From the NCBI GenBank assembly GCA_003216075.1, contig QCJK01000003.1, forward strand, positions 62,001 to 126,000: a stretch of DNA of 64,000 bases, in the 5' to 3' direction. The position numbers and the translations under genes were made by a program. The notes below the pieces were generated by a model. The model did not search any database. It was not told where the DNA came from and worked only from the letters and a program-made list of their open reading frames with translations. The stretch is from Prochlorococcus sp. AG-409-B05. GTDB taxonomy: Bacteria; Cyanobacteriota; Cyanobacteriia; PCC-6307; Cyanobiaceae. Below, piece by piece: positions 46,122 through 48,552 of the stretch (positions are counted from its first letter, which is position 1; each line of letters begins with the position of its first letter).

Positions 46122-47336
46122 TCAAATCCCTTTTCGTCGTATTGATGACCAAAGCCTAATAGGTAAGCCCCAAATGTAAATAAAACCTTCTGCCGATTTG
46201 TGATCAAATTGATCATTAGCACCATATGTAGACATATTAGAAAAATACAAGCTACTAGATTTGGAATTACGACCAATAACAGTTGCATTACCCTTATATA
46301 AACGCAACTTAATCAATCCATTTACATGCTCTTGAGTAACATTTACAAAACCATCAATGGCATCCTTTAAAGGACTAAACCAAAGCCCTTGGTAAACCAG
46401 ATCAGCCCATTCTCGCTCCAATTGAACTTTAGAACGTAATAGATCCGCAGGCAAAGTTAAGCTTTCAAGTTCTTGATGAGCTTTAATCAAAAGTAAAAGA
46501 CCAGGAGTTTCATAAATCTCACGACTTTTAATACCAACCACTCTATTCTCAATCATATCAATACGACCAAAACCATGTTTTCCTGCCAAAAAATTGGCCT
46601 TTTTAATTAAGGAAATAGGATCTAATTGAATACCATCAATAGCTACTGGATTGCCAGCCTCAAAAGCAATTTCTACCTCTTGAGGGTCATTTGGTGCTTC
46701 TTCAATAGAAGATGTCATTGCAAACACCTCCTCCTGAGGAGCTGTCATAGGATTCTCAAGAGGTCCTGCTTCAATACTTCTGCCAAGAAGATTTAGATCA
46801 ATAGAATAAGGAGACTTTTTACTGACTGGGGCAGGAATACCAAAGCGTTCTCCATAAGCAATAGTTTCTTCCCTACTCATACCCCATTCCCTAGCAGGAG
46901 TAAGAACCTTTAATTCTGGCGCAAGAGCCCCAAATGCAACATCAAAACGTACCTGATCATTACCCTTTCCAGTACACCCATGAGCAAGCGCATCAGCGCC
47001 ACATTCTCTAGCAATCTGAACTAATTGTCTTGCAATCAGAGGCCTGGCCAGTGCAGTTGATAAAGGATAACGACCTTCATAAAGAGCATTTGTTCTAATG
47101 GCAGGAAAAGCAAATTCTTTAATAAAAGGTTCAATCAAATTCCCTACAAAAGAACTACTGGCACCGGCATCCAGAGCTTTTAAACGAATTGACTCAAGCT
47201 CATCTCCTTGACCAAGGTCAGCAGCATATGTGATAACTTCTTTGACTCCCCATTCTTCCTTCAGAAAAGGGATACAAACACTGGTATCTACTCCTCCAGA
47301 GTATGCAAGAACAACTTTTTTAGCCTTCAAAGCCAT
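46122..47336 (-). CDS. argG: Argininosuccinate synthase ArgG
   Basis: ATP-driven condensation of citrulline and aspartate in arginine synthesis. 404 residues, type 1 enzyme. ATP-PPase loop [18 protein letters not shown] at residues 9-26, [37 protein letters not shown], and [21 protein letters not shown]. Length is normal. Upstream (toward 48 kb) is a long region with no confident protein gene. Confidence 0.97.
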
Positions 47337-48080
47337 CTTTACTCCATAGAAGAATGTTTAAGGTCTGTCATTGACTGTAATTAGAACGAATTCCGCAATT
47401 ACATTTTCATCCTCGAGCAAACCGCTCTAAATGACAGCAATTAAACCTAGGAAAAGATGAGGACAAAATAATCATATGCAACATCTCATAAAAATAATGC
47501 ATGCATATACTAGTAAACGAGCATAAAAGGCACATCCCTATTCTTAAAAAATCATTAGCCTTATCAAATCATTGGAAAACACATATAGAGATCTATCTTG
47601 TATAAAGAGTCCCCATCGAAAAAGATAGAAGCCAGTAATTATCAATACATCGATAACAGCTCAACCAAAGGACATCAACAAGTATTCTCTGTCTTACAAA
47701 TAAAAATAGACTGCCTAAAATTAGAACAAATTATAAATAATATTTGAAGCATAACAAAAACTCTGCCTGAAAGGCTAAAGCATTAAATCAAAAGATCGTA
47801 TTAGCCAATAATCAATTCCAACAGATATATATTCATCTGTAATAACAATGATTGCTTGCTTTTATATAAAAACTAATCATTAGAGAAGCCAGATCTCTCC
47901 AAACGTTTTTAAGCACGTCATTTCCACTATGACCAAAAAACCGCAAAATAGCAATGCGTGTAAAGGCTGATTGCAAAGCCAGCCCAAAAGCAGCATGATT
48001 TGAACATCGAACAAGGAGGCGTCTATGGACGACACGCCACCAGAGACTGCATAGAAGCAAGCTGATTTAAAGCCCCTGCT

Positions 48081-48110
48081 CCAACAGTCTTTTTCTAAAA
48101 GTTGGTTTTT
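48081..48110 (+). terminator. Possible intrinsic terminator
   Basis: CCAA (48081-48084) and TTGG (48102-48105) plus CTTTT (48089-48093) and AAAAG (48097-48101) form a bulged hairpin, followed by TTTTT at 48106-48110 on the plus strand. It comes 27 bases after the stop of a nine-codon frame with an ideal ribosome-binding site. Confidence 0.45.
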
Positions 48111-48242
48111 CGTCTGATGCGACAAATAACGGTAAGTCAATTCAGTCGATACTCCTCTGCATCGTCCTAGGTGCCCTCAAAGGAGTTCTAGCCAACACCT
48201 ATATTTTTGGCCCCAGGCGCTAACAGTCGGAAACTGCTTCAC

Positions 48243-48284
48243 AGAAAAGAGCCAAGTCTTTACCTACAGACTTGGCTCTTTTCT
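48243..48284. terminator. Strong hairpin terminator, 17-bp perfect stem
   Basis: AGAAAAGAGCCAAGTCT (48243-48259) pairs perfectly with 48268-48284, eight-base loop. Each outer arm contains TTTT on the outgoing strand, so it can stop transcription in both directions. It serves the minus-strand gene at 48322 and would also end any plus-strand transcript from the region before it. Confidence 0.75.
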
Positions 48285-48321
48285 ATGGAAAATTACTTTG
48301 TAGCTAAATCCATCAAAGGGA

Positions 48322-48552
48322 TTAGGGATCTATACGCTTGTCTAAGGAAACAGTCTTCAAAGATCGTTTAGAAAATTCAATAAAATAAATCCAAACTCCG
48401 AAAAACACAGAAGGACCAAACAACAAAAGCAAAATTAAATAGGGTCTTATCAAAAAAGCCGTTGGATGTTGGACTCCCCAAAAGCGCAAGCCAAAGCTGA
48501 AAGCCAAAGCAAGTCCCCAGGTAATTAGCACTAACCAAAATTTAGAAAACAA
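48322..48552 (-). CDS. Small membrane protein, conserved hypothetical
   Basis: 76 residues with two hydrophobic helices (FWLVLITWGLALAFSFGLRF; FLIRPYLILLLLFGPSVFFGVWIYFI) and a basic C-terminal tail (SKRSLKTVSLDKRIDP). Unknown function. Divergent from the DUF3134 gene by 59 bp, with a strong hairpin terminator 38 bases after its stop, which supports a real transcription unit. Confidence 0.6.
   Translation of the reverse strand: MFSKFWLVLITWGLALAFSFGLRFWGVQHPTAFLIRPYLILLLLFGPSVFFGVWIYFIEFSKRSLKTVSLDKRIDP

Follow-up and report, generated by a model that had tools for sequence, protein, structure and literature searches.

A probable Yfr103 RNA locus upstream of argG in Prochlorococcus sp. AG-409-B05 with a conserved, Shine-Dalgarno-led micro-ORF

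In the window, a 64,000-nucleotide stretch of the genome of Prochlorococcus sp. AG-409-B05, argG was identified by a Pfam match at 46122-47336 on the minus strand. Approximately 985 bases without a protein gene separate argG from the next conserved ORF, which begins at 48322, and the G+C content at 47900-48300 is approximately 45%, compared with 30-33% just upstream. Both the gap of nearly 1 kb and its elevated G+C content had been correctly recognized in an earlier sequence-only reading of this DNA. That reading had placed the gap downstream of argG, which was wrong: argG is encoded on the minus strand, which puts the gap on its upstream (5') side. The small ORF at the far end of the gap (48322-48552, minus strand) encodes a hydrophobic protein of 76 amino acids with a TTG start in this genome, and converges on the terminator listed below. 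By tblastn, 9 of 10 relatives encode a similar protein, and a Pfam search with this ORF gave no match. Two further minus-strand ORFs, which lie within the gap (47833-48060 and 47880-48140), matched no Pfam family.

The following features were recognized in the gap, where percentages refer to paired cells of the alignment described below.

47911-47920, plus strand: promoter-proximal block AAGCACGTCA (family consensus AGGCACGCCA)
47925-47932, plus strand: putative -10-like element CACTATGA, from comparison of upstream regions
47951-47974, plus strand: 5' hairpin GCAAT...ATTGC, paired in 92.9% of cells, without two-sided changes
48015-48041, plus strand: Shine-Dalgarno (SD) sequence GGAGG (48015-48019), paired in a predicted hairpin to ACGCCACC (48034-48041), which encodes Thr-Pro-Pro of the micro-ORF
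48025-48054, plus strand: micro-ORF ATG...TAG, encoding MDDTPPETA; start codon and D-[T/S/G/D]-P-[P/T] share a frame in 161 of 165 scorable copies
48054-48240, plus strand: 3' structured domain, with closing helix GAAGC (48054-48058) / GCTTC (48236-48240)
48075-48085, plus strand: invariant motif CCTGCTCCAAC, from invariant alignment columns
48110-48149, plus strand: covarying stem TCGTCTGA (48110-48117) / TCAGTCGA (48142-48149), with inner extension
48151-48186, plus strand: nested hairpin, outer helix ACTCC (48151-48155) / GGAGT (48182-48186)
within 48151-48186, plus strand: inner helix of the nested hairpin, GCATC (48159-48163) / GGTGC (48170-48174)
48209-48217, plus strand: second invariant motif GGCCCCAGG, from alignment and structure comparison
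48243-48284, plus strand: terminator hairpin, 17 bp, with mirrored A and T runs

Two hairpin terminators had been proposed for this gap. The one at 48243-48284 held up: its 17-bp stem is perfect, its folding energy corresponds to a z-score of -8.96, and none of 200 shuffled sequences folded equally well or better. The plus strand of relatives also has a hairpin with a subsequent T run at the corresponding position, with a different sequence. The hairpin probably serves both the plus-strand RNA and the converging small ORF on the minus strand. A simple terminator scan, which missed this strong hairpin, reported one site, compared with a mean of 2.2 in shuffled sequences. The other proposed terminator (48081-48110) was rejected as a chance-level internal stem: it is a weak 5-bp stem (z -0.48; 51 of 200 shuffled sequences did equally well), and relatives do not retain its T run. 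The plus-strand stretch as a whole, terminator included, folded better than all of 100 shuffled sequences (z -3.83). The minus strand gave an even lower z-score (-4.84), so folding alone could not fix the strand, which was instead assigned by comparison with relatives. The SD sequence, the micro-ORF and the promoter-like block all three lie on the plus strand.

Yfr103 is an RNA for which seven paralogs of 290-328 nt, together accounting for 55.2% of mdRNA-Seq reads, have been described in Synechococcus CC9605; the Yfr103 section of PMC5069720 also reports homologs in WH7803 and in a number of low-light Prochlorococcus, with SS120, NATL1A/2A, MIT9303 and MIT9313 among the strains given for the family, as well as a conserved structure and an unknown function, and classes the RNA as non-coding. 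At E<=0.01, the DNA of 47900-48300 matched 26 of 37 genomes of the same family and 1 of 23 genomes outside it, the latter over 33 bases only. The 1.8-Mb source genome contained two copies, on contigs C3 and C36, and several other genomes were likewise multi-copy. One relative genome (G238), presumably of the Synechococcus CC9605 type, contained exactly seven full copies and one 36-base fragment. A further copy (L061) was present in the Synechococcus WH7803 record CT971583.1. A two-motif pattern matched 210 of 400 family genomes, a count that is inexact because some hits, such as G238:C1:2031996, appeared spurious by eye and had no profile match; a reversed control pattern matched 2. With a stricter pattern, 78 named stretches were retrieved, among them ones from Synechococcus WH7803, Prochlorococcus MIT 0701 and other Prochlorococcus records, Cyanobium and Vulcanococcus. 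By hand count, the two-motif pattern occurred in none of 68 genomes of genus g18, which we take to be high-light Prochlorococcus.

In view of the seven copies in G238, the copy in WH7803 and this taxonomic range, the locus very likely belongs to Yfr103, a very abundant multi-copy RNA already known from marine picocyanobacteria. From 47951 to 48284, with the start site predicted only, the element measures 334 nt; the published range is 290-328 nt, and the 3' ends of Synechococcus copies are uncertain. The plus-strand small RNA of the sequence-only reading is thus supported by conservation among relatives, as a member of a known family rather than as an isolated candidate. A search against Rfam, proposed in that reading as a check, was run and found no Rfam 15 family at the element at gathering thresholds; at E<=10 only sub-threshold, chance-type matches appeared, mostly of microRNA models on the terminator hairpin. 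Neither did any Rfam family match the element in 20 related loci. Identity with 6S RNA was rejected: its covariance model (RF00013) gave no match at the element, and the 6S RNA of this genome lies at C2:87346-87530.

Two copies came from records with unexpected names, L119 (Microcystis elabens FACHB-917 contig98) and L093 (a metagenome-assembled genome titled proteobacterium), for which misnaming or a binning error is more likely than transfer. The copies L065 and L082 of Prochlorococcus MIT 0701 are located at the ends of contigs. Near-identical copies would be expected to interrupt assembly in this way, so that draft genomes may contain more copies than were counted.

In close relatives, the Yfr103 copy likewise sits between argG and a DUF3134 gene, a conserved place that would suit a cis-acting leader or attenuator of a neighbour such as argG. 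The element, however, is oriented away from argG, has a terminator at its end and converges with the next small ORF, and copies occur at other places in the same and in other genomes, which makes such a role extremely unlikely. Some relatives contain an extra ORF (...GEIYG[NK]LTVIR...) between Yfr103 and argG (L002:1747-2370 and L005:1814-2350) that is absent from the window.

Upstream of the element, the AGGCACGCCA block was kept in most, but not all, of 88 upstream regions. An imperfect palindrome has been published for Yfr103 at -29 to -58, and the block is possibly part of it. Judged from the position of the -10-like element, transcription is expected to start near 47938-47942.

Conservation of the RNA structure was assessed in an alignment (A1) of 85 full copies thinned to 65, in which 48 columns, mostly outside the ORF, are invariant. 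The secondary structure of Yfr103 is strongly conserved, with covariation far above controls. In a structure of 36 base pairs, 96.0% of cells could pair, compared with 92.1% after shuffling; two-sided changes occurred in 94 cells (24.7 after shuffling), and the covariation score was 0.152 (0.082 after shuffling), values that none of 500 shuffles reached. Slid versions of the structure scored 0.012-0.052, a comparison in which the actual structure is favoured, as it was partly derived from A1 itself. Two-sided changes were found in all eight pairs of the stem at 48110-48149 (helices 7 and 8). In the closing helix GAAGC/GCTTC, whose 5' strand overlaps the last base of the micro-ORF stop codon, 97.5% of cells were paired and one pair showed two-sided changes. 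The CTCC/GGAG helix of the nested hairpin was preferred over pairs 201-202 with 268-269 of the RNAalifold prediction, which were excluded from the counted structure. It is pairable in 127 of 135 copies when the best register is chosen for each copy, a count that carries no shuffled control, and its alternatives among copies include CTTC/GAAG, TTCC/GGAA, GTCC/GGAC and CTCT/AGAG. The CCTG and CC of CCTGCTCCAAC are predicted to pair with the CAGG and GG of the second invariant motif; these helices (5 and 6) are nearly invariant and so beyond the reach of covariation. The internal plus-strand stems noted from the sequence of the window are conserved in relatives, and the lack of conservation that the sequence-only reading had named as refuting was not observed. 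Between the arms of the covarying stem, an insertion AAGGATCAATGAT...AGGTGCG was observed, long in L019 and L020 and shorter in L013, L016 and L041.

A short ORF preceded by an SD sequence was present in 106 of 109 distinct copies of a first collection. Addition of 60 regions from two-motif hits and of further sequences brought the number of distinct copies to 174, of which nine were incomplete and left unscored. In 161 of the remaining 165, an SD-led start codon was in frame with D-[T/S/G/D]-P-[P/T], with E or N accepted for D. The ORF was no part of the patterns used for retrieval of copies, but is part of the profile used for scoring. The four exceptions were a frameshift (a 1-base deletion in two of the seven G238 copies, which are identical and entered the count as one), one copy with CTG instead of ATG, and two copies without the ORF. 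A strict expression for the ORF failed in 14 copies, 10 of which were in-frame variants under the broader rule. Nine variants (L092, L099, L105, L109, L115, L122, L141, L144 and L145) encode MRDDGPTEQ... in place of the DTPPE core; in these, the frame is kept and the CCNCC motif is lost.

Substitution patterns, calculated by pooling all pairs of copies irrespective of their relatedness, pointed to selection on the encoded amino acids. For distinct 15-mers of the DTPPE core, pN/pS was 0.23 in frame, compared with 2.06 and 4.35 in the shifted frames. By position, the ratio was 0.07 for Pro-Pro alone, 0.34 for Asp-Thr and 0.87 for Glu and the next codon; with the Pro codons left out it was 0.41, compared with 1.40 and 1.61 in the shifted frames. 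The C-terminal part, at 1.08, showed no coding constraint. Peptides were 7-14 amino acids long in nearly all copies, and only their first 6-8 residues were constrained. Among in-frame copies the start codon occupies two positions one codon apart (95 and 66 copies). Mapped onto a tree of copies, the distance from SD to start codon shows 30 changes (24 modulo 3). Three changes of the start-to-Asp distance occurred among in-frame copies, in whole codons, as the selection of copies requires; the out-of-frame counterpart is one frameshifted sequence, outside that count. Taken together, the comparison of copies indicates that the micro-ORF is quite probably under coding selection, confined to its core.

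The source genome contains the anti-SD sequence TGGATCACCTCCT. In the window, GGAGG occurs 4-16 nt upstream of 1 of 46 ORFs, whose start positions are uncurated, and SD-led starts thus look rare. In predicted ensembles, the SD sequence had a mean unpaired probability of 0.26 over 131 copies. Its main partner lay at +20 to +29 nt, and GGAGG was predicted to pair mainly with the CCNCC of the micro-ORF's own Pro-Pro codons, which would explain part of the conservation of Pro-Pro. Taken by itself, the SD hairpin of the window copy was only modestly stable relative to shuffled sequences (z -1.49). The base that follows GGAGG could pair with the third position of the Thr codon in 76 of 148 copies, and such pairing was rejected as the cause of its conservation. 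Beyond the anti-SD sequence, a search for pairing with the rRNA stretch L214 gave no Watson-Crick run of 11 or more, and shuffled elements reach 10-12.

These data were weighed against the possibility that Yfr103 is purely non-coding, with GGAGG and CCNCC conserved as a hairpin and the ORF as a by-product. The predicted GGAGG/CCNCC pairing would by itself explain conservation of the first and second bases of both Pro codons, and the two identical frameshifted copies in G238, the unconstrained C-terminal half of the ORF and the non-coding label in the Yfr103 section of PMC5069720 all fit such an RNA. It does not readily account for a start codon kept in frame in nearly all scorable copies despite one-codon shifts and a free SD distance, for the low pN/pS of Asp-Thr and of the core without Pro, for pairing of the Thr third base in only about half of the copies, or for the GPT variants, which keep the frame without CCNCC. 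A purely non-coding Yfr103 is accordingly considered unlikely, and the small-RNA interpretation of the sequence-only reading probably needs to be extended by a translated segment. At the other extreme, the RNA might be a small mRNA, with the peptide as functional product and the folded 3' part merely stabilizing the message. Conservation of SD, start codon and DTPPE core, and the apparent rarity of SD-led starts in the window, are in line with a small mRNA; a peptide with so few constrained residues, and 48 invariant RNA columns located mostly outside the ORF, render it rather improbable. As judged from comparison of the copies, Yfr103 is probably a translated, dual-feature RNA.

The explanation that best joins these observations, and that is held with moderate confidence, is that the locus is a Yfr103 copy with a translated micro-ORF, which may act as a translation-gated riboregulator. 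The plus-strand RNA would extend from near 47940 to the hairpin at 48243-48284 and would carry, in this order, the SD sequence, the micro-ORF MDDTPPETA* and the conserved folded domain. The micro-ORF would be translated, and its value may lie mainly in ribosome loading rather than in a mature peptide, because constraint is limited to M-x(-x)-D-T-P-P-(E). Since the SD sequence is predicted to be paired with the Pro-Pro codons, initiation would be coupled to opening of the first codons. A ribosome that had passed the opened SD hairpin and reached the stop codon would cover GAAGC, one strand of the closing helix of the 3' domain. Translation may in this manner toggle the RNA between two folds, one open and one closed, with the invariant motifs on display in the closed fold. 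Such translation-gated folding is a model that can be put forward tentatively. More speculative still is a role as ribosome-loaded sensor or ribosome sink, in which the most abundant 'non-coding' transcript of marine picocyanobacteria, whose genomes make little use of SD sequences, would be translated from a strong SD sequence sequestered by its own Pro-Pro codons, and ribosome availability would decide the state of the closing helix and the display of the motifs. Ribosome stalling at Pro-Pro was also considered and was given less weight. PMC4176338 describes stalling as weak when Thr precedes the prolines (TPPP); Glu is not among the residues that it lists as promoting stalling after Pro-Pro (Trp, Asp, Asn and Gly), which makes TPPE a poor stall context.

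The element, for which a length of approximately 300 nt is estimated, shares with published Yfr103 multiple copies, a conserved structure, overlapping taxa (WH7803, Prochlorococcus) and seven copies in a genome presumed to be of the CC9605 type. It differs from the published description in that the latter is of a non-coding RNA, with SD sequence and micro-ORF unmentioned in the Yfr103 section of PMC5069720. The micro-ORF was not mentioned in the literature searched, which included that section and did not extend to the original Yfr103 description. What appears to be new here is the conserved SD sequence with its micro-ORF, the RNA family itself being already known. Among other systems, compared by description as given in the relevant parts of PMC2518516, Yfr6 and Yfr9 of Prochlorococcus MED4 are also cyanobacterial RNAs with a possible internal ORF for a short peptide, but have an overlapping antisense RNA partner and, in Yfr6, an ORF of 33 amino acids. 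SgrS/SgrT and RNAIII are, according to the same passages, regulatory RNAs that also carry a short ORF, whereas in Yfr103 only 6-8 residues are constrained and the predicted partner of the SD sequence is its own ORF. tmRNA, too, is a structured RNA with a short internal reading frame, but identity with it was rejected: its covariance model (RF01851) gave no match at the element, and the source genome has a separate cyano_tmRNA at C5:21043-21334.

Picocyanobacteria are thought to rely little on SD sequences, as stated in PMC5607370, which cites Voigt 2014. If Yfr103 is translated, much of the cell's transcript pool in these organisms would engage ribosomes via an SD sequence. A conserved, frame-constrained micro-ORF makes the question of what this RNA does accessible to a direct test.
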